This document shows, piece after piece, positions 44,861 through 64,000 of a stretch of 64,000 bases of DNA. The number at the start of each line of letters is the position of its first letter. Position 1 is the stretch's first letter. The stretch is taken from positions 1-64,000 of the forward strand of contig CASDPK010000009.1 of assembly GCA_949282555.1 (NCBI GenBank), given 5' to 3'. The position numbers and the translations under genes are program-made. This DNA comes from an uncultured Lentisphaeraceae bacterium (GTDB lineage Bacteria > Verrucomicrobiota > Kiritimatiellia > RFP12 > DVOR01). Below the pieces are notes generated by a model. It was given only the letters and a program-made list of their open reading frames with translations, ran no database searches and was not told the DNA's origin.

Positions 44861-46111
44861 ATGGCTAAAGCCGACCTCAACATCACGACGAACAACGACG
44901 TCTCGCAGGCCGTCAAGTCGTTTGATCAAATCAAGAATGCGGCCAAAAAGGCCGGCGCGGACATCCGAAAAGACGGCATCAACATATCGGACGAATTGGC
45001 ATCCAAGAACCGAGAGCAGACAAAAGAACTTGTCGGCCGCTTCACCCGAATAGGAGCGATGCTGAAGATGATTGGTTTCATCGCCGGCAACCTTAAAAAG
45101 GCCTTCTTCGAGATGGCCGAGGAGGGAAGTAAGCTTCGTGAGGTAGCGAAATCCGTTGGTGTCTCCGCGGAAACCATGGCCGCCCTCAAGGCAAGGGCTG
45201 ATGCCGCTGGGATTGGCCTCAAGGAGTATGAAAGTGCGCTCGACGACCTGAGGTTGGGTAGGACAACGATAGACGAGCTCTCGCGCTCGTGGAGAAATGT
45301 TGCGAAAGACGCTTACGGGGCGAAAGAGGCTAACGACCGCTTCTTCGAAAACCTGAGCGGAAACATTGAGGCCATCTCGACGTCAAAAAACGTTGAAAAT
45401 TTTAGAAATTATTTTAAACGTTTCTGGAGAGAGTCCATCTCAGGGCTTGTGTGGCTTTCCGGGAATGGATCAGAGGCGGAGAGCACAATCGAATACGCCG
45501 TCCAACAGGGTATCAGAGGGGAGCGTGGGCGCGACAAGGCCGTCCGGGCAGCCATAAGGGAGCAACTCTACTCCCCTGTTGAGGGAACGACGATGTGGAA
45601 TGCTAGGTACAAAGAGCTGTCCGCCCTTTTCGACTCCCGCGCATCCGCGGTGGACACCGAGCGCAGGAACTCCCGTGACGACCGCATTACCTCATTGTAC
45701 GACAAACTCGGTGAGAACGTCGGGCTTGTCATGAACGCGCTTTCCAGACTCGGCCTTGGGAGCCTCACGGAGACAGAGATTACCGAGGCCGTGAACCGCT
45801 CACGGGCGAGGGAGACCACGCGTGAAAAGGACGACCGCGCAATCCGCGCCATCCTCAAAGAGGACGCGGAACTGCGGAAGGCCAACGACGCGGCGGAGCG
45901 CGAGGCGGCGGCTATGGACAAAATGCTCCTCTCCTACGCCTACGCGCGGGGTGGCGGCCTCCTCTCGGGCATCAACTACGGCTTCGCGTTGCCGCAGAAG
46001 GCCGACCGCAAGGAGACGTTGCTTGAGCAAATCCAGAAGCGCCAAAAATCGTTCCAAGAAACCTACGATAAACGCATGAAAGAGTTCATCCAAAAGATGA
46101 CGGGAGAGTGA
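44861..46111 (+). CDS. Tape-measure-like phage tail protein (short)
   Basis: 416 residues. The start (MAKADLNITTNNDVSQAVKS) followed by FDQIKNAAKKAGADIRKDG is the usual opening of tail-tape-measure proteins, and a hydrophobic stretch (GAMLKMIGFIAGNLKKAFFE) and coiled coils follow (LREVAKSVGVSAETMAALKA, a motif that recurs in such proteins). Real tape measures are often over 600 residues; this one is short, so a tail with a short tube or a different role is possible. AAAGGAA precedes the ATG. The 4-base overlap with the next frame implies co-translation. Confidence 0.6.
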   Translation: MAKADLNITTNNDVSQAVKSFDQIKNAAKKAGADIRKDGINISDELASKNREQTKELVGRFTRIGAMLKMIGFIAGNLKKAFFEMAEEGSKLREVAKSVGVSAETMAALKARADAAGIGLKEYESALDDLRLGRTTIDELSRSWRNVAKDAYGAKEANDRFFENLSGNIEAISTSKNVENFRNYFKRFWRESISGLVWLSGNGSEAESTIEYAVQQGIRGERGRDKAVRAAIREQLYSPVEGTTMWNARYKELSALFDSRASAVDTERRNSRDDRITSLYDKLGENVGLVMNALSRLGLGSLTETEITEAVNRSRARETTREKDDRAIRAILKEDAELRKANDAAEREAAAMDKMLLSYAYARGGGLLSGINYGFALPQKADRKETLLEQIQKRQKSFQETYDKRMKEFIQKMTGE

Positions 46112-46116
46112 CAGAC

Positions 46117-46938
46117 ATGGCGGATATCAAGAGCATCGGCGGAACTGCGCTCGGCCTTCAAGGCTGGGTAAAAGTCTCCGAAACCAAAGACCCCGAGACC
46201 AACACGACGACCACCGTCTTCCGTGGCCGTCTCGACTTAGCGGAAGCCGCGGTAAACGCCGCGCTTGCGTTGCCCCACGATACCATCCAACTCAGCGAGG
46301 AGCCGGAGAGCGGGCTTGCCACCATCACGCTCACGCGAGACGAGGACACGGACGCTGGCTCTTCCGTCAAGTCCGACGAGACGGCCCAGCCCGAGGTGAC
46401 CATGCAAGGGAGCATGGTGCAGGTGCCCATCTATCAAGCCCCACACTTCGGCCTTGGGGACACGAAGCCAGACGGAACGGCCGACGGCCTCACCGTGCAG
46501 GACGTTCGCAAGGTGGACTACGCCATCCGTGAGCGGGGCACCGTTGCGGAGGGGCGCGACGTGACGGCGGGGACCCCCGCCGCGCAATACGCCGCGTGGA
46601 CGCTCATCGGTCAAAAGACCTACGAGAAGCCGGTCTACACAATGACGATAACCTTCCACCTCAAACGCTCGGGGCGTTCGCGCGTCTCGGCCTTGCAGGA
46701 CAAGGCGGGAACCGTCGTGCCCTTCGCCACCGCCATCCGCAACTTGCCCTCGCGCCTTCGTCCCGTCCAGCCCGACGGCTTCGACAAGTGGCTCGTCCAA
46801 GCCCCGACCACGCGCTACACCACGAAAGGCGTGGATATCACCGTTGTCTACGTCGGCGCGAGGGATTGGCCGAATTACTACACGGGCGGGACGTGGGAGC
46901 CACCCTCCCTTGCGTACGACGTGAACACGGCAAACTGA
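46117..46938 (+). CDS. Phage virion-like protein of unknown function
   Basis: 273 residues, rich in beta strands (TTVFRGRLDLAEAAVNAALA, SGLATITLTRDEDTDAG, YTMTITFHLKRSGRS, TTKGVDITVVYVGARDWPNY). No known domain was recognised. ATG 46117 has GGGAGAG eight bases upstream; an alternative GTG at 46108 overlaps the previous stop. The position between a tape-measure-like and a fibre-like gene suggests a tail component. Confidence 0.55.
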   Translation: MADIKSIGGTALGLQGWVKVSETKDPETNTTTTVFRGRLDLAEAAVNAALALPHDTIQLSEEPESGLATITLTRDEDTDAGSSVKSDETAQPEVTMQGSMVQVPIYQAPHFGLGDTKPDGTADGLTVQDVRKVDYAIRERGTVAEGRDVTAGTPAAQYAAWTLIGQKTYEKPVYTMTITFHLKRSGRSRVSALQDKAGTVVPFATAIRNLPSRLRPVQPDGFDKWLVQAPTTRYTTKGVDITVVYVGARDWPNYYTGGTWEPPSLAYDVNTAN

Positions 46939-46947
46939 GGAAGAGCC

Positions 46948-48096
46948 ATGCTAAAGGACGCGAAAGGCTACCGTTCGCCCTATATCAACGCGCTCAATGC
47001 CGCGGTGAAGGCCCAGCGTGTGGTGGGCGGGGATGTTGTGCCGCAGGAAGGGACATCGGGCACCCTGCTGTTCCTCGAAGGGACGCGCCGCGCCCGCCGC
47101 TTTGAGTTGTTCTTCGGCTTCGACACGGAGGCCGCTGGCTCGTCGGGCGCGGTGGATGCTTACTGCCTCGGCGACGGCACGCTCTACGTCGCCGCCGTGC
47201 CTGTCCTGCTCGTCCCGGGGCGCGACGTGTACCGCCGCGAAACGGGCCTTGCGCCGCGCGGCTCGGGGTGGTGCTCTCACAAGGTCATCGAGGGCGAGCA
47301 GACGCTGGAGTGGCTATGTTGCAGGTACCAAAACGAGTGGTATATCGTCGCGCGGAAGACCGACCCGAACCCGGAAAACTCCGAGAAGTTGGAAGACCTC
47401 CTGCCCGAAGACCTCGGGCCAATCCAGCCGGGCGAAGTCGAGCGCGTCTTCTCCTTCGGCGACTTCCACATCCCCGACCCATCCGGTCAAAATACGGTGG
47501 AGATTCGGCAATACGTCCGCTCAGATGTCTACTATGGTGGGGCTGGTCAGACGGAGACCGTCCAGCCCTTCACGCTCCGCATTCGCCTCGACAAGGAGAC
47601 CGTCCCGCCCGAGAATGAGGGCGACGAACCGACGACCAAGGAGACGGCCTATCTTGACATCTTCGACCCGCAGGGCGTGCGCCGCGTCCTTCTCAATGCG
47701 AACCTCGACACCGAGACTGAGGCGTTGGAGTGGGTGGATAAGCGCACGGAGTTGTCGGGCGGATGGTGGACGTTCGGGAAGGCCGACGACGCGCTCCCGT
47801 GGGCACCCTCCGGAACGCCCGGCCGCGACCGGTCCTTCGTCTTCGTGCAATTCCCCGAGGATGGCGAAAGCGGCTTCTATGTGCTTCTGAGCGATGTGCG
47901 GCCAACGCAAGAGGCCTTCCCACGCTCCGCGCTCATCGGCATAATCTACCGAACGGACAACTCGCCGGACGAGGAGGGGAACCCGCCCGAGACGGAGCAC
48001 TCCTACAGTTTCGTCCAAGCCAACGTGGGTGCCTTCGACCTTCGCAACCAATGGGAGGCGCAGGAGCGCGTCTTTGTCGCGCTGGGCGGGTCGTCG
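46948..48096 (+). pseudogene. Phage-type structural gene, 3' end lost to a deletion
   Basis: About 383 residues are plausible, from MLKDAKGYRSPYINALNAAV through YLDIFDPQGVRRVLLNANLD to VFVALGGSSED. At about 48090 the meaningful sequence ends; the frame then runs as proline/arginine-rich noise to 48381 while another frame takes up the integrase. The gene starts 9 bp after its neighbour with AGGAAGAG before the ATG. No family is recognised. Confidence 0.55.
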
Positions 48097-48506
48097 GAGG
48101 ACTTCGCCCCGCCGAGGCGGTGCGCCTTACGGCCACGGAGATTGGCGTGGAGTATATCACGCTGGGGGCATCGCAGACCAAGACCGCCTCCGCCCGCACC
48201 GTCGCCATCCGCCCCAACCTCCGCGCCATCCTTGACCGCCACCCAGTCCGCGAAAGCGTTACACAAGGACTCTCACCCGACCGATTCCGCAAGGTGCTGG
48301 TGGCCGTCGTCAAGGCATCGGGCATTCAATGGACGCAGGACGTGCTCCGCCACTCCTTCGCCTCCTACGCTTACGAGATGACCCGCGACGCGGCCTCCAC
48401 GGCCGCCGAGATGGGCCACCGGGGCACCGACGTGTTCTTCCGCCATTACCGCGGTTTGGTACCACCGGGAAGCGGAGCGAAGTGGTTCGCAATAGGCACC
48501 GATTAG
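48096..48506 (+). pseudogene. Tyrosine recombinase, catalytic C-terminal half only
   Basis: The catalytic residues are in order: GLRPAEAVRLT (Arg I), SQTKTASARTV (Lys), LRHSFASY (His/Arg II), AAEMGH (His III) and FFRHYRGLV (nucleophile Tyr). The N-terminal SAM-like core-binding domain and any start codon are missing, because the gene begins at the deletion joint with the preceding structural gene. The enzyme would have used tRNA-Thr as target. Its stop codon lies within the right AATAGGCAC/ATTAGGCAC pair. Confidence 0.8.
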
Positions 48507-54666: not shown

Positions 54667-54895
54667 GCAAATCAACTCCCTCCTAAAAAGCCTAAGGAGA
54701 GAGGAACGAGCGTATTATGTGAGCAAAACCATAAGCGCGTGCTGGTTTGCAATCACCTAAACTTGAATCAAACTTCTCAAATCCATTGCCAAACTTCTCA
54801 AATCATTTGAGAACCTGAAGCCTCATTTGAGAATTTGCACCCATTGCCAGTCGACTTCCCGACACGCACCTGGCACGGTGAAGCCCAGCACGAGC
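54664..54895 (+). repeat. Repeat unit, copy A (with half-site array A)
   Basis: About 230 bp that recurs at 56746-56975 (copy C), with the second half also at 56611-56745 (copy B). It holds CTAAAAAGCCTAAG, an ACGAGCGTATTATGTG stretch and the TTCTCAAAT array at 54774-54833. The SpoU-end-like stretch (CCTGGCACGG...) follows it at 54864. This region (54667-55014) holds no gene. Confidence 0.8.
54774..54833. promoter_or_regulatory. Half-site array A
   Basis: TTCTCAAAT at 54774-54782 and 54795-54803, then a one-base gap and ATTTGAGAA at 54805-54813 and 54825-54833. The centre is the perfect 19-bp palindrome TTCTCAAATCATTTGAGAA, flanked by outward half-sites at 21 and 20 bp, near two helical turns. 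Confidence 0.7.
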
Positions 54896-55014: not shown

Positions 55015-56508
55015 TCAATCACTTGATGCCGGGAAGGCCCCGTCCTTTTCCGAAAAAACGTATCTTTGCTTAGAGCTTCTCGGGCGTTCGGGATAACACA
55101 ATCTTAGTTTACCCTCCTCAAGCAACGGAGTAACATAACGAGACATTGCATAAGAGATAGATTTGATTCCCAAAAAGGCGGCGATTTCACGCCGAGTACG
55201 CGGAATCGAACAAAACCCACACAAATCCTCCCCAGCCTTTCTTGCCACAACCAAAGGTATTGAAACGGATAGATCGCGTATCGCGAGGGAGCGTGTCTTG
55301 AGACAGACGACAAATTCCCCCCTGTCACTGGAGAACTCCGGTTCGGGAAGTCCGGCATCCGCCATCGCCCGACGAATACGGGGAATCCCAGAATAACGAT
55401 TTTCCGTTTGACCGAGACTCTCCATTGCGAGGATGAGCTCAGGATTACGCGTGTCTGGCTGAACCATTCCAAGCTGATCAATCCCAATCCGCCCATAAAT
55501 GCCTCCCGGATTCCGAATTTCCATCCGGTCTTGGAACATAATGAGCTGAATAGGCTTACTTTCGGTATAGCGACTGTAATCACGATGGACCAACGCATTA
55601 AGAATCGCCTCACGCACCGCATCGAGGGGATATTCCGGAACATCCTCACGTTGGCCGGAATGTGGATTAATCCGAACCTCCATCCGCATATTGCGCTTGA
55701 CGAAAGCAAGCGCCCCCTCGAGCATTTCCGAAAGACCTCCCTCCATCCGGGCGCTGTCCAAAAAGCGAGCGCCGGCATCATTCAATTCTCCCGCTTCATT
55801 GCCGGGCAAACGAGTGGCAACAATGGACAACTGTGGAAAAAGCGACTGTGGATAGAACCCAAAAAGCAAAAGAGCCGTGAGCGTGCATTGACCATTCCGC
55901 TTGATGAACGTCAACTCATACAAGTGTTCCCGGGAGACCTCATTCAGATTGGGGCGATCCTTGGTTCGTATTTGGAGATAAGTCTCAAGAGCCTTGGAAT
56001 CAAGAAGCGTCTCACACAAGCCCTCGACCGGCCGCAAATCATCCTTGATTTGTTTCCGATAAGCCTCATAACTGTAGACCTCATAGTCCGTCATCGGCTT
56101 GTCAGCATCGCCAACACGCACGAATGACCCCCGTATACGTCCAAGTGCGCGCTTAAAACAAGGACGTTCCGAAAGATCCAAAGGCGGAATTTCCGCCGTA
56201 ACAAAATGAAGCCCATTTTCTGTGTAAACAGAAAGAATCGGACGAACGACGGGATACATTTCCTCCCCTATTTCCTGCAACTTCCGTTGGAGATCATTCA
56301 CATCATAGACCCCCACCTTGGCAAATGCCTGCCCCTCATCCAATCCAAAGAGAAGAATCCCCCCTTCATTTTGGTTGGCAAATGCCGAAAACGTATCATA
56401 GAGCCTGCTTGGACATCCCTTATGCGCAGCCTTAATCTCCAATGTCTTCAACTCACAGGGCTGTCGTCCAACCTTATCCAAAAGAGCCTTAAATTCTTCT
56501 TCGACCAT
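55015..56508 (-). CDS. AlbA_2/Schlafen-type domain and HATPase_c_4 transcriptional regulator-like protein
   Basis: 497 residues. Residues about 20-130 are an AlbA_2 (Schlafen) domain: LEIKAAHKGCPSRLYDTFSA, FANQNEGGILLFGLDE and RGSFVRVGDAD. Residues about 290-410 are an HATPase_c_4 domain (YPLDAVREAILNALVHRDYS, RMEIRNPGGIYGRI), and a winged helix ends the chain (RREIAAFLGIKSISYAMSRY). Such proteins are linked to stress, defence and gene control; no function is proven for this one. GGAGGTG precedes ATG 56508. It is AT-richer than its neighbours and lies between copies of an operator-like array, so it may bind them and be acquired. Confidence 0.82.
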   Translation of the reverse strand: MVEEEFKALLDKVGRQPCELKTLEIKAAHKGCPSRLYDTFSAFANQNEGGILLFGLDEGQAFAKVGVYDVNDLQRKLQEIGEEMYPVVRPILSVYTENGLHFVTAEIPPLDLSERPCFKRALGRIRGSFVRVGDADKPMTDYEVYSYEAYRKQIKDDLRPVEGLCETLLDSKALETYLQIRTKDRPNLNEVSREHLYELTFIKRNGQCTLTALLLFGFYPQSLFPQLSIVATRLPGNEAGELNDAGARFLDSARMEGGLSEMLEGALAFVKRNMRMEVRINPHSGQREDVPEYPLDAVREAILNALVHRDYSRYTESKPIQLIMFQDRMEIRNPGGIYGRIGIDQLGMVQPDTRNPELILAMESLGQTENRYSGIPRIRRAMADAGLPEPEFSSDRGEFVVCLKTRSLAIRDLSVSIPLVVARKAGEDLCGFCSIPRTRREIAAFLGIKSISYAMSRYVTPLLEEGKLRLCYPERPRSSKQRYVFSEKDGAFPASSD

Positions 56509-56610
56509 AACGCCACCTCCATTGAACTCCGTGACACCCCACAGGATACCAAAATTCATAAAATGCGTTGATAAAATTTCTTAAAACAGATCAAAATCCG
56601 TAAAGATTTA

Positions 56611-56745
56611 ACGAATCTTCTCAAATCCATTGTCAAACTTCTCAAATCATTTGAGAACCTGAAGCCCCATTTGAGAAGTTGCATTCATTGCCAGCCAACG
56701 CCCCGACACGCACCTGGCACGGCGAAACCTAGTCTTGAACGTTCG
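56611..56745 (+). repeat. Repeat unit, copy B (second half only)
   Basis: Matches the second half of copy A, including the array and the CACCTGGCACGG stretch, and lies just upstream of the AlbA-type gene's start. Confidence 0.75.
56618..56677. promoter_or_regulatory. Half-site array B
   Basis: TTCTCAAAT at 56618-56626 and 56639-56647; ATTTGAGAA at 56649-56657 and 56669-56677. Spacings are the same as in A. It is about 110 bp before the AlbA-type gene, and contains TTGACA on that gene's strand. Confidence 0.7.
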
Positions 56746-56975
56746 CGAATCAACGCCCTTCTAAAAAGCCTAAGAACAGAAAAACGAGCGTATGATGTGG
56801 GCAAAACCATAAACGCGCGTTGGTTCGCAACCCCCTAAACTTGAATCAAGATTGAATCAAAATTGAATCAAACGTCTCAAATCCATTGTCAAACTTCTCA
56901 AATCATTTGAGAACCTGAAGCCCCATTTGAGAAGTTGCATTCATTACCAGCCGATCCCCGGTACACTCCTAGCAC
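56746..56975 (+). repeat. Repeat unit, copy C
   Basis: Full-length relative of copy A, with small insertions of TTGAATCAA units. Confidence 0.75.
56874..56933. promoter_or_regulatory. Half-site array C
   Basis: GTCTCAAAT (one mismatch) at 56874-56882, TTCTCAAAT at 56895-56903, ATTTGAGAA at 56905-56913 and 56925-56933; same spacings as A and B. Confidence 0.65.
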
Positions 56976-56987
56976 ACCCTCTCATCC

Positions 56988-57050
56988 CCCCACCCACTTA
57001 GAGGCGCAGGCGAAGGATTCGGTGCGCCGACATCTGCGCCATAGGTGGGG
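56988..57050. ncRNA. Possible structured RNA segment
   Basis: CCCCACC (56988-56994) pairs with GGTGGGG (57044-57050); within it GGCGCAG pairs with CTGCGCC and an inner CGGTGCGCCG folds. A terminator-like hairpin with a T-run follows at 57070-57112. No promoter is convincing, so the direction is open. Confidence 0.3.
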
Positions 57051-57285: not shown

Positions 57286-57825
57286 TTACGCCACGCGCCG
57301 CTTCAACGCAAGCCCCGCAACGCCCAACGCCAAGAGCGCCAGCACCGTCGGCTCAGGGATAGCCTGAACAGCCGTCCAATCTCTCGTCCCCTTGAATTGT
57401 TCGGCCGTCCAAACAACAGAGGTGGCTGCATCTGTACTCTCTTCATCATAAGGAGTCCCCGATTGCACAGAACTAATCATAACGTTCTGTCTCCCTTCGT
57501 CAAAGATAACAACAAAGAAGTCATAAGACGTGTGTGCCTCGATTCCGGCACCCAACACACTGATAGATCTCGAAACAATTCCATTTGCTGTCAAGTTTCG
57601 CGAAACCTCCGGAGCCACCCAAGTCCCAGCTTGGATACTCGCCAATGTTCCACTCGCCTCGTCAGTCCCACCAACGCACAAATACGCTACATAATTACTT
57701 AGATTTCCCCCCGCAGGTGAAGCCGCAACAGTCGCCGTAGGATTTCCACTCCCCCATGTGATAGCGGCCGCTTGAGCGATTCCTCCGAGAAAGAGAACCA
57801 ACGCTAAAATGAATGCTTTTTTCAT
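57286..57825 (-). CDS. PEP-CTERM protein of cassette 1
   Basis: 179 residues. A signal peptide (MKKAFILALVLFLGGIAQA) is followed by AITWGSGNP, the opening shared by all paralogues here (A-x-h-x-WG), a beta-rich body with YDFFVVIFDEGRQNVMISS, and the sorting tail IPEPTVLALLALGVAGLAL plus KRR. In PEP-CTERM/exosortase systems that tail is cut and the protein moved to the surface or matrix; no exosortase gene is in the window. AGGAAGG precedes the ATG, which lies 18 bp after the partner gene. Confidence 0.88.
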   Translation of the reverse strand: MKKAFILALVLFLGGIAQAAAITWGSGNPTATVAASPAGGNLSNYVAYLCVGGTDEASGTLASIQAGTWVAPEVSRNLTANGIVSRSISVLGAGIEAHTSYDFFVVIFDEGRQNVMISSVQSGTPYDEESTDAATSVVWTAEQFKGTRDWTAVQAIPEPTVLALLALGVAGLALKRRVA

Positions 57826-57843: not shown

Positions 57844-58539
57844 TTACTTAGAGATACCATCAACCGACAACGTGGCTCCCGCCTGCGATGTCGTTAGCCA
57901 AAAACTTGCCCCTAGAGTGAGTTTCTCAGTCACTGGAACATAGTCCTTATCCAGCCACCCGCCATAATCTTTCCAGTAGGAATAAACAGCATACGTGTCA
58001 CCCTTCCTTACCTGTATCTCGTCCCCATCGGATAAACCACTCCAATTTGCGTTACTGTTCAAATCCAACGCAACAGGAAGCCCTAATGAGACCATTTGCA
58101 ACCCAGCCTCACTCACATACTTGTATTCACCAGCTACAACAGCACCTCGAAGGGTGATGTCAACTGAACGTCCCGGCGTCTTTAGCCAAAACGCCGTTCC
58201 CGGAACCAGTTTTTGTGTTGCAGGATTAAAGCTTTCGTCAAGCCACCCGCCGTAATCTTTCCAGTAGGAATAAATGGTATATCTATTTTCAAAGGGCTTA
58301 TCCTTGTTATAGACTTGAAGTTCGTCACCGTCTTGAAAATCCCCATCTATAACTTGTGCTACAGATTGAGGCTCCCCATCCAGTCCGGTAAAAACCGCCC
58401 CCAGCATATTGAATCCAGGAGTCGTTCTCACCGTCGTGTAACCGACGATGTCGCTTTCAACGGCGGCGGATAGACGCCCGTTAAAAAACAGCAGTCCCGC
58501 CAGTAGGGCTGCGCAAGCTAAAATTCGTTTGACGTCCAT
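57844..58539 (-). CDS. Secreted 'VGYTT' two-repeat protein of cassette 1 (intact head)
   Basis: 231 residues. Signal peptide MDVKRILACAALLAGLLFF, then NGRLSAAVESDIVGYTT, the conserved block, and two internal repeats, each with GDE(L/I)QV...YSYWKDYGGWLD followed by (A/S)FWL(K/T)T. Such 'VESDIVGYxT' secreted proteins recur in Kiritimatiellota and relatives; function unknown. This is the only one of the four visible copies with a ribosome binding site (GAGGAG), a start codon, a standard signal and a well-formed promoter (58643-58671), so I take it as the expressed copy. Confidence 0.8.
   Translation of the reverse strand: MDVKRILACAALLAGLLFFNGRLSAAVESDIVGYTTVRTTPGFNMLGAVFTGLDGEPQSVAQVIDGDFQDGDELQVYNKDKPFENRYTIYSYWKDYGGWLDESFNPATQKLVPGTAFWLKTPGRSVDITLRGAVVAGEYKYVSEAGLQMVSLGLPVALDLNSNANWSGLSDGDEIQVRKGDTYAVYSYWKDYGGWLDKDYVPVTEKLTLGASFWLTTSQAGATLSVDGISK
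58432..58482 (-). repeat. Conserved 5' block, copy 1
   Basis: Encodes NGRLSAAVESDIVGYTT. DNA is nearly identical to the blocks at 58991-59046, 61474-61539 and 62404-62468 (core ACGGGCGTCTATCCGCCGCC), while sequence beyond the block differs. Confidence 0.85.
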
Positions 58540-58642
58540 CTCTCTCAACTCCTCTCGCAGAGGCAAAAGCCTGACAAATCAGTCTTTCAACGGTGTTCAT
58601 CAACGCCTCGTGACTCCCTCTCGGGGCACGAACAACACCATC

Positions 58643-58671
58643 ATAGTAACATTGAGGTCTGTGACTTGCAA
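58643..58671 (-). promoter_or_regulatory. Promoter of cassette 1
   Basis: TTGCAA, 17 bases, TACTAT on the minus strand, giving a leader of about 100 bases. Confidence 0.6.
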
Positions 58672-58869
58672 GTAAAAAAGATGAAATATTCTTTTTGGTA
58701 CAGCGGGTTCATTGGCAACAGATACCTTCCTTTGGAGCGGTGTCTCCGTATGTTTTGCCACTCGGGTCACATGTTAGCACTCCTATTCTGTGCGCGTTTT
58801 AGCAAATACTTTCTTCAGCTTCTTCGATAGGGATATCCGAAGAAGTCCCTATATCCTGTTGGTTCCTCA

Positions 58870-58875
58870 TATAAT
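58870..58875 (+). promoter_or_regulatory. -10-like box toward cassette 2
   Basis: TATAAT is perfect but no -35 hexamer lies at the right distance. Confidence 0.35.
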
Positions 58876-58928
58876 ATGAAAACGTTGTCGGATTCTGTCT
58901 GAGATAGAGGCAGGTGCCATGATCCCCC

Positions 58929-59627
58929 ATGGAGAAAACTCGCCAAAACCCACTTATATCGGCCTTTGGTTCCTTTTTTGGCCATGTGAATCTAAACGGG
59001 CGTCTATCCGCCGCCGTTGAAAGTGATGTCGTTGGATACACGACGACAGCTTTGCCTCTTGGTTATTCTTTGGTTGGCCTTCCCTTCGATAGTCTTAATG
59101 GCAAAACCTCGCTTTCCATTCAAGATATCAGTATTGAGAATAGTCAAGTGGGTGATGTAATTCAATACTGGGAGAATGATCTTCTACAATCTGCCACATA
59201 TCGTATCCGCAATGGTGTGAGTGGTTGGTGGAAAAGTTTCACAGAACTCTCGACTAAGACATTTAGTCCGGGAGAAGGGTTTTGGGTTCGGAAAAATGCG
59301 GAGGGAAATCTTACTTTTTCCGGAAAGTTGGTGGATCTTGACAAGGTGACAACGATAACCGAAGCAGGCAAATTTGTCCTCATTAGTCCGAAACTTCCAA
59401 AAGAATATGCGGTCAATGATATTTTATTCGAGGGTATTTCAACTGGTGATCAAATCCAGTATTGGGATGGGGACAAGCTTGTATCGTTGACATATCGTAG
59501 TCGGGGCGACATCACAGGTTGGTGGAGTAATTTCACTACATTGTCGGATAAGGTGTTCGCTCCGACAGAAGGGTTTTATCTTTTGACTAAGACTCCTGTC
59601 ACCGTTAAGTTTCCTGACGTTCGTTAA
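58929..59627 (+). CDS. 'VGYTT' two-repeat protein of cassette 2, doubtful N-terminus
   Basis: 232 residues from ATG 58929. NLNGRLSAAVESDVVGYTTT is the block; two repeats follow (GDVIQYWENDLLQSATYRIR and GDQIQYWDGDKLVSLTYRSR, each with a GWW(K/S)xFTxLS and EGF(W/Y)). The first 20 residues (MEKTRQNPLISAFGSFFGHV) are unlike cassette 1 and are a poor signal peptide; no good ribosome binding site precedes the ATG. The body is intact, so this is either expressed from an odd start or a silent copy. Confidence 0.65.
   Translation: MEKTRQNPLISAFGSFFGHVNLNGRLSAAVESDVVGYTTTALPLGYSLVGLPFDSLNGKTSLSIQDISIENSQVGDVIQYWENDLLQSATYRIRNGVSGWWKSFTELSTKTFSPGEGFWVRKNAEGNLTFSGKLVDLDKVTTITEAGKFVLISPKLPKEYAVNDILFEGISTGDQIQYWDGDKLVSLTYRSRGDITGWWSNFTTLSDKVFAPTEGFYLLTKTPVTVKFPDVR
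58991..59046 (+). repeat. Conserved 5' block, copy 2
   Basis: Encodes NGRLSAAVESDVVGYTT; inverted relative to copy 1, 508 bp away. Confidence 0.85.
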
Positions 59628-59658: not shown

Positions 59659-60186
59659 ATGAAACTTCTTGTCGTTTCCATTAGCCTTTTTATCGCCAGC
59701 GTGATGCATGCCGCTTCCATCAAATGGGGGGTAATGGGCAACACAACGCCTATTACTACACCAAATGGCTCTATTGCATATTTCATTGAAAGTTCAGCTT
59801 CTCGTGAAAGTATTCTCAGTTCGATCGCGAATGAGTCCTTCGATTTTGGAACGGCTCTCGGCTCTGGTGTTGTGACGGATGGCAATGTGTATGACATAGG
59901 GACTGATGACAATTACTACGTTGCCTCTGCTGATTTGCCGGTAGGAACGGATTATAGCTTCTATGTTGTCATTTTTAACACAACTACGGCAGACGAAGCG
60001 ACGCAGTTCATATTAAGCTCAGAGTATGTTGCGAGTATTTACGAAGGTGATAATCCTCAAACCATTATCGATTTTGGCCCGAACGTGGACAGCGAAGGGT
60101 GGACAAGCATTGTGCCTGAACCTACCGCGTTGGCCCTTCTTGCGCTGGGCGTGGCTGGATTGGCCCTTCGCCGGCGTGTAGCGTGA
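59659..60186 (+). CDS. PEP-CTERM protein of cassette 2
   Basis: 175 residues. Signal peptide (LLVVSISLFIASVMHA), mature start ASIKWGVMGN, body with YSFYVVIFNTTTADEATQFI, and tail VPEPTALALLALGVAGLALR plus RR. AAGGAAAAG precedes the ATG. It lies 31 bp after its partner and ends at a palindromic terminator shared with cassette 3. Confidence 0.87.
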   Translation: MKLLVVSISLFIASVMHAASIKWGVMGNTTPITTPNGSIAYFIESSASRESILSSIANESFDFGTALGSGVVTDGNVYDIGTDDNYYVASADLPVGTDYSFYVVIFNTTTADEATQFILSSEYVASIYEGDNPQTIIDFGPNVDSEGWTSIVPEPTALALLALGVAGLALRRRVA

Positions 60187-60331
60187 TAATCGGATTCTTC
60201 AAAAGTGAACGAGGCGCGGAATTCCGCGCCTCGTTTCGTTTATTCGTCTGAAAGTAAGAACTTATGCCACACGGCGCTTCAACGCAAGCCCCGCAACGCC
60301 CAACGCCAAGAGGGCAAGCACCGTCGGCTCT
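60116..60331. repeat. Convergent hub 1 (copy of hub 2)
   Basis: About 215 bp holding the 3' ends of two converging PEP-CTERM genes and the palindrome. Near-identical to 63571-63785, with a few substitutions and a 2-bp longer palindrome in the second. Confidence 0.88.
60210..60233. terminator. Bidirectional palindromic terminator of hub 1
   Basis: A perfect 24-bp palindrome (CGAGGCGCGGAA and its complement) flanked by TTTCGTTT on one side and an A-rich stretch on the other. Confidence 0.8.
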
Positions 60332-60816
60332 GGAACAGGGATCTCCGACCATGCCAGCGTTCCGTCCGCGTTGAAATAAAGTTCGCCAACGTGTTCCGAA
60401 GAGCCAGGAAGTGTACCACCGTCAAAAAGTTCTTGGGTGTCACTAATTGCATAGTACCCACTGGAGACCTGCGACAAATCGGTTACATCCGAAGTAGTAT
60501 AAATAACCACGTAATAATACCCAGATCCTTCAGCCTTAAACTGAGAGTCTTGGTCTACGGTCGAGGTTATATAAATTCCTCCCACCTGAACACTTCCAGA
60601 CGCAATAAACGACGCTCCTGTTGTATCCCATCCAGAAGTCGCAGACCACGTTGGAATACTCCCTGTGCTACTTTCGACCATATACAAGAACGCCGTTCCC
60701 GTCCAATCGGTGGTTCCGGACGGCCCATTCACCGTCGAATCCGTTCCCCACGAAATCGAGGCGGAATACGCAAGCGTACCAACAAATGCAAGACATGCCA
60801 AAATAAACGTCTTCAT
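60262..60816 (-). CDS. PEP-CTERM protein of cassette 3
   Basis: 184 residues. Signal (MKTFILACLAFVGTLAYSAS), mature start ISWGTDSTVNGPS, body with YYYVVIYTTSDVTDLSQVSS, and tail VPEPTVLALLALGVAGLALK plus RR. AAGGAA lies before ATG 60816. It follows its partner by 27 bp. Confidence 0.87.
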   Translation of the reverse strand: MKTFILACLAFVGTLAYSASISWGTDSTVNGPSGTTDWTGTAFLYMVESSTGSIPTWSATSGWDTTGASFIASGSVQVGGIYITSTVDQDSQFKAEGSGYYYVVIYTTSDVTDLSQVSSGYYAISDTQELFDGGTLPGSSEHVGELYFNADGTLAWSEIPVPEPTVLALLALGVAGLALKRRVA

Positions 60817-60843: not shown

Positions 60844-61530
60844 TCATTGAGCCGGGGAGGAAAACTCAAGTGTTCCATTCGAGCGCATCTTATTGAATAC
60901 AAAGCATTCATCGGCAGAGATACTATCTGTCGTGACCTCTGCCTCCACCGTGCCATCAGCACCCACTTTGTGCCATCCGGTGGTTGTCAGAACGTAAGAC
61001 GTGTACGCTTTTGTCGTGGGATCGAGACGCTGGAGCGTATCAGCCCTACTTGGATTATCGTTTGCATAGAGTGTTCCAGCGAGCGAGCTGATAGCCATTG
61101 AGACAGGATATGGATTGGCGACAAGATTGAGGCCACGCTTGAGCGTCACGCTCTTAGATGACTCCGAAAGGACTTCTCCTGCCGCAAGAATTGAGCCCGC
61201 TTCACGATTCTTATAAAGAAAAACTCCTTGCCCTGGGGCAATGACATCTGTTGTGACAGTGTCCTCACCATCTTTTGTCCACCCTTGGGTCTTATAATAA
61301 TACGTTGTGTAGGCTTTCGTGTCAGGATCTTGCACTAAAAGATAATCCGCACGCGCAACATTGTCATTCGCATAAAGATTCCCAGAGAGCTGAGCGATTG
61401 GATATCCCTCTTGGGAACCCTCTAAGGACAAAAACGGAACCGCAAGGGCAAAGAAGCCACGGGGAAGTGACGTCGTCGTGTAGCCGACGATGTCGCTTTC
61501 AACGGCGGCGGATAGACGCCCGTTTAGATG
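60844..61530 (-). pseudogene. 'VGYTT' two-repeat gene of cassette 3, without start codon
   Basis: From HLNGRLSAAVESDIVGYTTT the frame is intact to its stop and encodes two repeats (LYANDNVARADYLLVQDPDT and LYANDNPSRADTLQRLDPTT, each then TKAYT and GW). Upstream the frame stays open but has no ATG, GTG or TTG with a ribosome binding site; that DNA is the promoter and first codons of the antitoxin gene on the other strand. It should be silent unless recombined onto an expressed head. Confidence 0.7.
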
Positions 61531-61539
61531 CGCAGAAGG
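61474..61539 (-). repeat. Conserved 5' block, copy 3
   Basis: Extends further than copies 1 and 2: with copy 4 it shares CTTCTGCGCATCTAAACGGG before the core, about 65 bp in all. Inverted relative to copy 4. Confidence 0.85.
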
Positions 61540-61554
61540 TATGTGAAGATGTGT

Positions 61555-61560
61555 TATAAT
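61555..61560 (+). promoter_or_regulatory. Extended -10 box of the toxin-antitoxin operon
   Basis: TGTTATAAT (TGn plus perfect TATAAT), 22 bases before the antitoxin start; the -35 is poor. Confidence 0.5.
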
Positions 61561-61582
61561 CAAAACCAGAAGGAGGGCCGCG

Positions 61583-61750
61583 ATGATTCCTACAACATCT
61601 GATTCTGTCGCGCAAAGACAGTTGATGGAAGCGCTTCGCGCCGCGCAAAAGAAGATTGTCGCTGAAGGAAAACGTGCACAGTCTTGCATAGAGGAACAAC
61701 GGCGACGGGCCATCGCCGAACGCGCAAAGTTGCTTTGGGGGGCGAAGTGA
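61583..61750 (+). CDS. Putative antitoxin (55 aa) of the zeta-type toxin
   Basis: MIPTTSDSVAQRQLMEALRA continues as an alanine/arginine-rich helix (QRRRAIAERAKLLWGAK). The size, helical nature and coupling to a downstream kinase fit an antitoxin. AAGGAGG lies 6 bases before the ATG. Its stop overlaps the toxin start (GTGA). No known antitoxin family is recognised. Confidence 0.6.
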   Translation: MIPTTSDSVAQRQLMEALRAAQKKIVAEGKRAQSCIEEQRRRAIAERAKLLWGAK

Positions 61751-62373
61751 AGCCTCGCTGTCTTGTCGTTGCCGGGCCGAACGGTTCCGGAAAGACATCC
61801 ATTACGGAACAATTGCATGAATTAAAGCATCGATGGATGTTGGGATGTGAATATATCAATCCCGACAAAATCGCAGAGGAGCAGTTTTCCGGATGGAACG
61901 ATGCCGCCTCTATTCGCTTGGCCGCGGAAAAGGCCGAGTCCTTAAGGGCATTATGCTTAAAAGAGCGACGAGATTTTGCCTTCGAGACGGTCTTTTCCGT
62001 TCGTCAAAAAGTGGACTTCCTTCGCGAAGCAAAAGAATGCGGCTATTTTATCCGCTTTTTTTTCGTTGGGACGGATACGCCACTCATCAATGCGGCTCGT
62101 ATCGCCAAGCGTTACATTAATGGCGGTCACACGGTACCTATTGAAAAGGTCGTTGACCGTTATAGTCGCTCTATGGCAAATGCGCTTGAGGCCGCAACAT
62201 TTGTTGACCGCGCCTACTTTTATGATAATTCTGCGGAATTTCAAGACGGCGTAAACCCAGAATGGACGCCCCTGTTTCGTACGCAAGACGGGTGTCTTTG
62301 TGAAAAATATCCCCGACCCACCCATGCTTGGGCTCAAGAAATCTACGATCGTTTGAAATTCCACACCCTCTGA
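61747..62373 (+). CDS. Zeta-toxin-family AAA kinase
   Basis: 208 residues. RCLVVAGPNGSGKTSITEQL is the Walker A loop; YINPDKIAEEQFSGW, DFAFETVFSVRQKVDFLREA and RIAKRYINGGHTVPIEKVVD with RYSRSMANALEAA follow in zeta order. Zeta toxins phosphorylate UDP-N-acetylglucosamine and so stop wall synthesis; this small member may have another target. The start is GTG 61747, overlapping the antitoxin stop. The module lies between inverted copies of the conserved block. Confidence 0.85.
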   Translation: MKPRCLVVAGPNGSGKTSITEQLHELKHRWMLGCEYINPDKIAEEQFSGWNDAASIRLAAEKAESLRALCLKERRDFAFETVFSVRQKVDFLREAKECGYFIRFFFVGTDTPLINAARIAKRYINGGHTVPIEKVVDRYSRSMANALEAATFVDRAYFYDNSAEFQDGVNPEWTPLFRTQDGCLCEKYPRPTHAWAQEIYDRLKFHTL

Positions 62374-62393
62374 CCTCCTTTCATAACCAATAA

Positions 62394-63065
62394 AAACGTT
62401 CCTCTTCTGCGCATCTAAACGGGTGTCTATCCGCCGCCGTTGAAAGCGACATCGTTGGATACACGACAAGAGAATTCTCGAAAGGTGTCCATTTACTTTC
62501 TATCCCGTTTGAGGATTTAGAGGGAGCAGAGGAGGGTTTTCCCATTCAAAAAATTGAGGGAACCTTTACTGCAGGAACACTTTCAGGGGATCAGTTGTTG
62601 GTATGGGATCCAGGATTAGGGCAATATACGTCCTATCGTTATACAAAGAATGGGTGGACCAAAGGAGGGATCTTAACAACAGATGTGATTTTTCCCACTC
62701 AGAGTGCCTTTTTGATGGCGGCTAAGCAGGCGATCTCGGTTACTTGCGCGGGAAGGGTTGTTTCGGAGGAGGAGACAAGAATTCCGTTGAGCAAAGGAAT
62801 TAATTTTGTTGCAAATCCGTATGCAACAGATTATCCGATCAAAGAGATAAAAGGAACATTGACGGCAGGTACTCTGCGAGCTGACCAATTACAGCGTTGG
62901 GATAGTGGAACGTCCCAATATGTGGTTTACAGGTACACAAATGATGGTTGGAAGAAGACAGGTGAAAGTGATGTAACAACGGATATTCTTGCCGCAGGTG
63001 AGGGTTTTGTAATCTCAAAACCTGTTTCGGATGGCGAACTTGTCTTTCCTTCTCCTTTAAAGTGA
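62394..63065 (+). pseudogene. 'VGYTT' two-repeat gene of cassette 4, without start codon
   Basis: The frame opens after a TAA at 62391 and reads HLNGCLSAAVESDIVGYTT, then two repeats (TFTAGTLSGDQLLVWDPGLG and TLTAGTLRADQLQRWDSGTS). No ATG, GTG or TTG lies between that stop and the block; the first ATG is well inside. There is no signal peptide. The coding body is otherwise intact, as expected of a donor cassette. Confidence 0.7.
62404..62468 (+). repeat. Conserved 5' block, copy 4
   Basis: About 65 bp, nearly identical to copy 3 in inverted orientation; the two flank the toxin-antitoxin pair. Confidence 0.85.
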
Positions 63066-63088: not shown

Positions 63089-63640
63089 ATGAAAAAGGTT
63101 CTTTTCTTTTTGTCTGTTTTACTTTCTAGTCTTCCCGTTTTCTCAGCACAAGTAAGTTGGGGGTTAGAGAGCGACATTTCTGGGCCGGGAGGCGATGTCC
63201 TTACCTCTGGTGTGGTGTATTTGGTGGAAGTCCCTTCCTCCGGGAATCCTCCAGAATATGTTCCTACCGATAATAAATGGAACATGAATGGTGGTACCAT
63301 TCTCGCTTCTTCTACGTATAATGAAGGGGTATGGGGACAGGTAGACCAGGTCTTAGGGAATGAGTTTTCGAAACAAAATGCCTATTATTTAGTTTTTACG
63401 ACACAGAATGGTGTTGTTTCAGACTTTGATGACCTCGTAGCAGGTTCAAGTGTCCTTATCTCCTCAATTCAAGGAGATGTCACGATCACACCCGATCCAA
63501 CTGGAAGTGGAAATGATGTCGTGATGGTGTTATGGGATGACGTTTCAGGAACGTGGCAAACTGTCGTTCCTGAGCCAACGGCATTGGCCCTTCTTGCGCT
63601 GGGCGTGGCAGGATTGGCTCTTCGCCGGTGCGTAGCGTAA
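63089..63640 (+). CDS. PEP-CTERM protein of cassette 4
   Basis: 183 residues. Signal (MKKVLFFLSVLLSSLPVFSA), mature start QVSWGLESDISGPGG, body with YYLVFTTQNGVVSDFDDLVA, and tail VPEPTALALLALGVAGLALR plus RC: one Arg of the usual RRR is Cys. ATG 63089 has AAAGAGGT 6 bases away; an earlier GTG overlaps the partner's stop. It ends at hub 2. Confidence 0.86.
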   Translation: MKKVLFFLSVLLSSLPVFSAQVSWGLESDISGPGGDVLTSGVVYLVEVPSSGNPPEYVPTDNKWNMNGGTILASSTYNEGVWGQVDQVLGNEFSKQNAYYLVFTTQNGVVSDFDDLVAGSSVLISSIQGDVTITPDPTGSGNDVVMVLWDDVSGTWQTVVPEPTALALLALGVAGLALRRCVA

Positions 63641-63785
63641 TAATCGGATTCTTCAAAAGTGAACGAGGCGCGGAATATTCCGCGCCTCGTTTCGTTTATT
63701 CGTCTGAAAGTAAGAACTTATGCCACACGGCGCTTCAACGCAAGCCCCGCAACGCCCAATGCCAAGAGGGCAAGAATAGTCGGCT
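63571..63785. repeat. Convergent hub 2 (copy of hub 1)
   Basis: Near-identical to 60116-60331, in the same orientation, about 3.45 kb away; the segment between carries cassettes 3 and 4 and the toxin-antitoxin genes. Confidence 0.88.
63664..63689. terminator. Bidirectional palindromic terminator of hub 2
   Basis: A perfect 26-bp palindrome (CGAGGCGCGGAAT and its complement), two bases longer than that of hub 1. Confidence 0.8.
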
Positions 63786-64000
63786 CGGGGACACTAATCC
63801 ACCCACCCACATCGCCGTCAATGGTAGCCGAAATCCCGTACGTTTCATCCGTTTCCCAAAGGACGGTCGATTGTGGATCCGTCTCACCAAACGTTTCGCC
63901 TGTTTTAACGGAACTAATCATTGCCCATCCCTTTGTTGCGTCGAAAATTACCATATAAAACGAAAGCGTTCCATCCGACAGTCCCGAAGCAACAGATGTG
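63718..64000 (-). CDS. PEP-CTERM protein of cassette 5, cut by the window end
   Basis: The C-terminal 93 residues are visible: SFYMVIFDATKGWAMISSVK, then GWISVPEPTILALLALGVAG and LALKRRVA. The start and partner gene lie beyond 64000. Orientation is again opposite to cassette 4. Confidence 0.83.
   Translation of the reverse strand, partial: TSVASGLSDGTLSFYMVIFDATKGWAMISSVKTGETFGETDPQSTVLWETDETYGISATIDGDVGGWISVPEPTILALLALGVAGLALKRRVA

Follow-up and report, generated by a model that had tools for sequence, protein, structure and literature searches.

What is a toxin-antitoxin (TA) pair doing between inverted repeats in the middle of a set of surface-protein genes, and what are the repeats themselves? 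The question is raised by the window, the 64,000-nucleotide stretch of DNA analysed here, which comes from a genome (G000) of the genus of Candidatus Spyradenecus (Lentisphaerota in the NCBI taxonomy). The answer depends on the identity of the two genes, the origin of the repeats that frame them, and the behaviour of the array and the pair in related species. We take these up in turn, using genome handles (G001, G003 and so on) where relatives have to be told apart.

A zeta-type kinase and its small partner

The pair consists of two genes on the forward strand, an antitoxin candidate of 55 aa (61583..61750) followed by a zeta-type toxin candidate of 208 aa (61747..62373), whose GTG start at 61747 overlaps the antitoxin stop by 4 nt (GTGA). 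The toxin candidate scores above the cut-off for the Pfam Zeta_toxin family (PF06414; 30.8 bits, E 2.4e-7, cut-off 22.3) and is the single zeta-type toxin gene of the genome. Its predicted structure (mean pLDDT 89.6) has the PezT/zeta fold, with the best Foldseek E-values for PezT (2p5t, E 1.7e-7) and zeta (1gvn, E 1.1e-6). The Walker A motif GPNGxGKT is unchanged in 27 relatives, and D40, R118 and R122, possible counterparts of zeta's catalytic acid and arginines, are invariant within the compact zeta subgroup that the 208-aa protein represents. The likeness to epsilon-zeta and PezAT thus covers the toxin fold, the Pfam family and the placing of a small antitoxin gene first. The differences are the compact toxin and its 55-aa partner, for which profile searches gave no Pfam match and no NCBIfam match above cut-off and which, by the same profiles, is not a three-helix antitoxin of the epsilon or PezA type. 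A small ORF (~60-80 aa) lies 5' of the kinase gene in 18 of the 19 relatives from other phyla that were examined, and the maintenance of this pairing supports a true operon partner. With the small gene first, the overlap with the toxin and the conserved pairing, the two genes have the layout of a type II TA operon.

These data also bear on a different reading, in which the protein is a metabolic or an RNA/nucleotide kinase with a small partner and its position between repeats is meaningless. The P-loop kinase fold is common to polynucleotide kinases, to which the model is about equally close (Z-score 14.5, against 13.9 over 174 residues for zeta), and the absence of a known family for the antitoxin candidate in the profile searches fits this reading as well. 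Weighed against it are the PF06414 match above cut-off, the top E-values for PezT and zeta, the small ORF before the gene across phyla and the patchy distribution of the gene, and we regard a non-toxin kinase as quite improbable. Judged from sequence and predicted structure, the 55-aa protein and the zeta-type kinase are very probably a genuine TA pair.

The promoter of the pair should be read as putative, since consensus scans of the region do no better than shuffles. An extended -10 match, TGTTATAAT (61552..61560, forward strand), is found, by motif match only, 23 nt 5' of the antitoxin start, with a good AGAAGGAGG ribosome site next. The -10 element is absent from the list of a sigma-70 scan. 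Promoter-like sites in that scan are rarer than in shuffles, and the promoter of the surface-protein leader described below (TTGCAA-17-TACTAT, 8/12 match) falls under its threshold, so that the scan carries no evidence.

Five cassettes and one leader

The genes around the pair form five cassettes. Each begins at a repeated block, after which comes a protein of ~205-220 aa starting AVESD[IV]VGY and then a PEP-CTERM gene. Only cassette 1 (57844..58536, reverse strand, by ORF and signal-peptide check) has a start codon, a ribosome site and a signal peptide, that is, a leader; its PEP-CTERM gene (57286..57825, reverse) is an ORF ending PEPTVLALLALGVAGLALKRRVA. Cassettes 2-5 are headless but intact: they start at the block, and what precedes it is unrelated sequence. 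Cassette 2 (58995..59627, forward, by profile match) is followed by its PEP-CTERM gene at 59659..60186 (forward); cassette 3 (60844..61524, reverse, by A3 profile match, no signal peptide) by one at 60262..60816 (reverse); and cassette 4 (62418..63065, forward) by one at 63092..63640 (forward), these three PEP-CTERM genes scoring above the cut-off of TIGR02595. Cassette 5 is located at contig positions 64300-64959, and the window end cuts its PEP-CTERM gene (63718..64000, reverse). No in-frame start codon is possible upstream of cassettes 4 and 5. The cassette protein is modelled confidently as an all-beta structure, for which a structure search at E 0.001 returned no match.

Cassettes 1 and 2 diverge around a segment of 512 nt (58483..58994) that carries the promoter, ribosome site and signal peptide and lies between blocks 1 and 2. 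The inverted arms on its two sides are 90% complementary, the same geometry is found in five relatives, and we propose that this leader segment is invertible. Cassettes 3 and 4 diverge around the TA pair. The 2.43-Mb genome contains exactly five copies of the block core, every one of them on this contig (contig positions 58454(-), 59001(+), 61496(-), 62424(+) and 64928(-), the fifth just past the window end), and each copy is the beginning of one surface-protein cassette. The block is near-identical within the genome, its first 15-18 bases vary between species in the genus comparison, and 5' of it identity drops at once to roughly 20-60%.

The origin of the inverted repeats around the pair follows from a comparison of these sequences. 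The left repeat (61475..61538, reverse) is the block with the headless start of cassette 3, and the right one (62404..62467, forward) is the block with the headless start of cassette 4; each is 64 nt long, they are 61/64 identical after reverse complementation, and they stand 865 nt apart. The earlier note had described a zeta-type pair between inverted repeats that fills the space between the inverted blocks of cassettes 3 and 4, and both the coordinates and the family assignment bear this out. It had also placed the promoter and first codons of the pair where a signal peptide of cassette 3 would be, which was a misreading, as cassettes 2-5 are all headless, both here and in relatives. Two related ideas were considered and rejected. 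The repeats are not ends made by the toxin gene, as in a transposon-like unit with terminal repeats, because they are two of the five cassette blocks and toxin-free cassettes have them; nor has the toxin gene displaced a signal peptide of cassette 3, since four of the five cassettes are headless and start at the same block. The frame of cassette 3 is open antisense across the antitoxin gene (60844-61818, reverse), with a hydrophobic GIIAALLLVLIITHLHI just before the block that could be an accidental signal peptide.

The pair is bracketed a second time by two hubs (60116..60331 and 63571..63785), each comprising convergent PEP-CTERM ends and a strong, bidirectional terminator-like hairpin. The hubs are direct repeats with 200/218 aligned columns identical, in agreement with the earlier claim that near-identical hubs surround the pair and could delete it by recombination. 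Read from the sequence, the deletions possible between direct repeats are block 1x3, 1x5, 3x5 and 2x4 and hub x hub, and four of these five would remove the pair.

The surroundings of the array contain further genes of interest. Window positions 55015-56559, 0.7 kb from the array, encode a protein of Schlafen/AlbA_2 type whose C-terminal ATPase domain is RecG-like, and a similar-looking gene is found near the G086 array (L192:5862-7301). On either side of the gene in the window are imperfect direct repeats (length 105-126 nt, identity 71-87%) at 54667-54888, 56607-56849 and 56863-56988; they may mark a mobile or duplicated segment. A weak phage-integrase match at 48096-48449 (E 5e-5, below cut-off) adjoins phage-like genes at 44861-48381, possibly a prophage remnant.

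Probable leader switching in the genus and the order

If the leader segment is invertible, relatives should carry it in front of different cassettes. Searched by profile across the genus, each array-bearing genome gave a single strong cluster of cassettes. With one assembly per species, the arrays of six species (G000, G001, G005, G007, G008 and G015) each have exactly one leader-bearing cassette, a headless cassette that diverges from it at a distance of ~510-670 nt, and further headless copies. All six show what characterises a Vsa-like system: a single leader copy, headless copies that share its block, and blocks inverted around the leader. In G016 there is one complete gene, whose ordinary signal peptide indicates where such a peptide should end. 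When leaders were fused in silico to headless cassettes of the same species, 17/17 fusions gave an open frame, and all 20 headless cassettes on the cassette-body tree have open frames of ~200-230 codons. Leader status changes five times on this tree, at least four of the changes being forced by supported branches. One lineage is leader-bearing in G000 and G008 but silent in G001 and G005. A second shows the opposite pattern, with the leader in G001 and G005 and a silent copy in G000. In a third, the cassettes of G007, G015 and G016 have the leader and those of G001, G005 and G008 are silent. The open frames, the in-frame fusions and the leader changes across lineages are in keeping with leaders that move, and decay would hardly account for them.

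Decay is nonetheless what one could suppose if no switching took place: the headless cassettes would be decayed pseudogenes of one surface gene, and the blocks would resemble each other by chance or through coding constraint. The sequence 5' of the headless cassettes does look unconstrained. Apart from the frames and fusions just described, however, the block is homogenised within each genome and different between species, the leader has moved between cassette lineages, and the layout recurs across the order, all of which makes this reading very improbable. Profile relatives of the cassette were found in 114 of the 161 genomes of the order, and the arrays of other genera and families have the same layout with blocks of wholly different sequence, such as CTCTGTGGCGCAGTCCTCC (G061) and CCCGCGTGGGGCGC(T/C)GAAGTC (G019 and G045). 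Taking the switching architecture by itself, we can say with considerable confidence, from its sequence organisation, that the array is a Vsa-like surface-protein switch operated by DNA inversion.

Two observations from these arrays concern assembly and gene content. The contigs G011:C1:1-83 and G006:C30:6-80 start inside a cassette block or immediately ahead of one, as would happen if repeats or inverting DNA made assemblers break off there. In several f3 arrays (L190, L192, L193, L194, L196, L198, L207) the PEP-CTERM genes are accompanied by recurrent protein pairs, one member starting like MKYTYAYKTSDGVRHE and the other, apparently secreted, carrying GGFIEKPG..GxIVYVNCQ.

The Vsa system of Mycoplasma pulmonis has one expression site that DNA inversion joins to silent 3' surface-protein cassettes (PMC2268961). 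That site carries the promoter, ribosome site and gene 5' end, a part that the leader would play here. The shared portion is smaller here, amounting only to a signal peptide of ~25 codons, and each cassette adds a PEP-CTERM gene; the recombinase may be a serine invertase, where Vsa has HvsR; TA modules lie inside the array; and the present system is known from assemblies alone. A second parallel is Mpi of Bacteroides, a master serine invertase that acts at a distance to control surface variation (PMC4747536, PMC8375218). A serine recombinase of ~200 aa is encoded away from the array in the Spyradenecus genus and resembles the NCBIfam 'master DNA invertase Mpi family' (NF009949; 291.6 bits in G001, above the cut-off of 272, and 270.7 in G000, just below it); the distant location is alike, and so, by these scores, is probably the family. 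Bacteroides flips promoters before complete genes, whereas here the signal peptide and start codon would move too. The small serine recombinase is also present in G002, G003 and G014, all without complete cassettes, and the block fits the Mpi repeat ARACGTTCGT at 7-8/10 at best, which 4-27% of shuffles equal; the Mpi-family enzyme is for these reasons a candidate only. An Mpi target site within the block was considered, as G011 fits the B. intestinalis sequence GTTCGTTTAA at 9/10, and rejected because the fit to the Mpi consensus is not significant against shuffles. In some arrays the shared stretch is short (~17 nt in G117), an argument against a mechanism that depends in general on RecA. In the window's genome, both strong matches to tyrosine recombinases are on other contigs. 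In genus g11, tyrosine recombinase genes adjoin headless cassettes (L190:13178-14437, L193:2480-3754, L177:13710-15167) and are, by this position, candidates for the switching enzyme of that genus.

Closer in phylogeny is Akkermansia muciniphila, of a related phylum (PVC group), in which inversions are enriched beside PEP-CTERM surface genes (inverton group 138; PMC11892184). That article, in the portion used here, says nothing of stores of headless cassettes that hold TA modules. Our literature search found no paper on phase variation in the group to which the window's genome belongs.

A possible role for the pair among the headless cassettes

Putting the parts together, we propose a phase-variable surface-protein array with a TA guard. 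The ~510-bp leader segment (promoter, ribosome site and signal peptide), which lies between inverted blocks, would be flipped or moved when the blocks recombine, a reaction probably carried out by the Mpi-family serine invertase of the genome. Relocation of the leader would cause a different headless cassette and its PEP-CTERM partner to be expressed and exported, and the others would be silent. The TA pair, having its own putative promoter, would be made regardless of the leader state. Silent cassettes would be under no selection while silent and could be deleted via the direct repeats. Loss of the middle of the array would mean loss of the antitoxin gene, and the longer-lived toxin would then kill or arrest the cell. 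We consider this chain as a whole to be possible, and only a little short of probable.

The zeta-type gene in relatives gives the best view of the last step. Close toxin orthologues, 62-65% identical, occur in G003, G007, G008 and G009. Of the genus's five close copies, the window's own included, four (G000, G007, G008 and G009) sit inside cassette arrays. Antitoxin orthologues of ~60 aa precede the toxin in G003, G007 and G008. The antitoxin occurs alone in the arrays of G001 and G005, where the two copies are 71% identical to each other over 49 aa: toxin homology stops after ~20 codons in G005 and a YafQ module follows, and the G001 array has no remaining toxin match, with the antitoxin kept and the YafQ module next to it. 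By profile search, the G015 array has no zeta module and G003, in which the pair is present, has no cassette. Genes that flank the array in G000 (PheT, MlaF, MlaD) are found in G007 and G008 on other, array-free contigs, so pair and array stay together though their surroundings differ. With four of five copies in arrays at different chromosomal sites, the pair is a resident of the array and not a random neighbour. The earlier suggestion that the pair penalises loss of the cassettes stays plausible on this comparison, if with a divided record: the recurrence in arrays, the remnants in G001 and G005 and the deletions that would remove the pair speak for it, and the array without the module, the pair without an array and the loss of the toxin in two species speak against it.

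The same exceptions can be taken to mean that the pair is a passenger, a genuine but selfish or neutral TA system that is in the array because recombination-prone, gene-poor spaces collect mobile TA and defence genes; the array would then gain nothing past the ordinary cost of losing any TA pair. This would account for the GmrSD-type genes (G008), Schlafen/AlbA-like genes (G000; G086 by resemblance), Abi_2 (G073) and membrane proteins held in arrays, for the decay of the toxin in G001 and G005 with the array kept, and for the G003 module. It accounts less well for a module that stayed with the array in four species despite different chromosomal sites, and for the way in which unrelated TA modules turn up repeatedly in comparable spaces. 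Two AbiEii-type genes with partners in G038, and a RelB-PIN pair with an extra PIN gene in G061, lie between divergent headless cassettes, and other array spaces hold Phd-ParE (G061), HigBA (G019), zeta with Abi_2 (G073) and AbiE (G041, G052, G126, G134). We hold the passenger reading to be possible, though rather doubtful. The two GmrSD/DUF262-type genes of the G008 array are located at L057:9411-12503.

Alternatively, the kinase may abort phage infection, the array being a defence hot spot whose linkage to surface proteins, as phage receptors, is jointly selected. The AbiE, Abi_2, GmrSD and Schlafen-like genes in arrays could be so understood, but many of the array modules are ordinary type II TA systems (HigBA, RelB-PIN, Phd-ParE), and a role in phage defence seems improbable to us.

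TA genes are frequent in variable islands. In 23 genomes and for three toxin families, arrays with 3-kb margins make up 0.52% of the DNA and hold 8 of 79 toxin-family matches, where 0.41 are expected. Counting matches less than 5 kb apart once leaves 5 of 74 clusters in arrays (0.38 expected, p 5e-5), and removing the arrays that suggested each family leaves three (p 0.0064), the families having been chosen after they were seen in arrays. This excess, though significant, is made up of few cases, and a general tendency of variable islands to carry TA genes may account for some of it.

A guard function of the TA pair has a precedent in the superintegron of Vibrio cholerae, in which TA pairs with their own promoters lie in a mostly silent array, which is retained because cells are harmed when the pairs are lost (PMC11023631). 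TA pairs inside a mostly silent cassette array are common to both systems; the cassettes here are surface genes with a shared leader, and there promoterless genes captured by IntI. This precedent and the recurrence in relatives support the idea that the pair counters deletion, and the arrays without a module and the decayed toxins weaken it. The finding of the same or unrelated TA pairs in the equivalent stores of related species suggests that such pairs protect the store from deletion. Extended to the whole order, this would give a 'guarded archive', in which unrelated TA families are repeatedly recruited between headless cassettes and keep silent stores intact. We offer that extension tentatively and think it on the unlikely side; the same reservation applies to the analogy by which it would be the inversion-switch counterpart of the TA cassettes in superintegrons.

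Inversion-switched silent cassettes, Mpi promoter switches, PEP-CTERM invertons and TA-stabilised arrays are each already known separately. Our search of the literature found no paper on headless-cassette stores in this order, nor on TA modules inside an inversion-switched store. If the proposal is correct, Candidatus Spyradenecus and its order would possess an antigen-switching system that no paper we found describes, and its TA modules would provide a testable answer to the question of how bacteria keep stores of silent genes that are unselected while unexpressed. It would also predict which of the surface proteins of these bacteria are variable, and a stabilising action of the TA modules in their stores.
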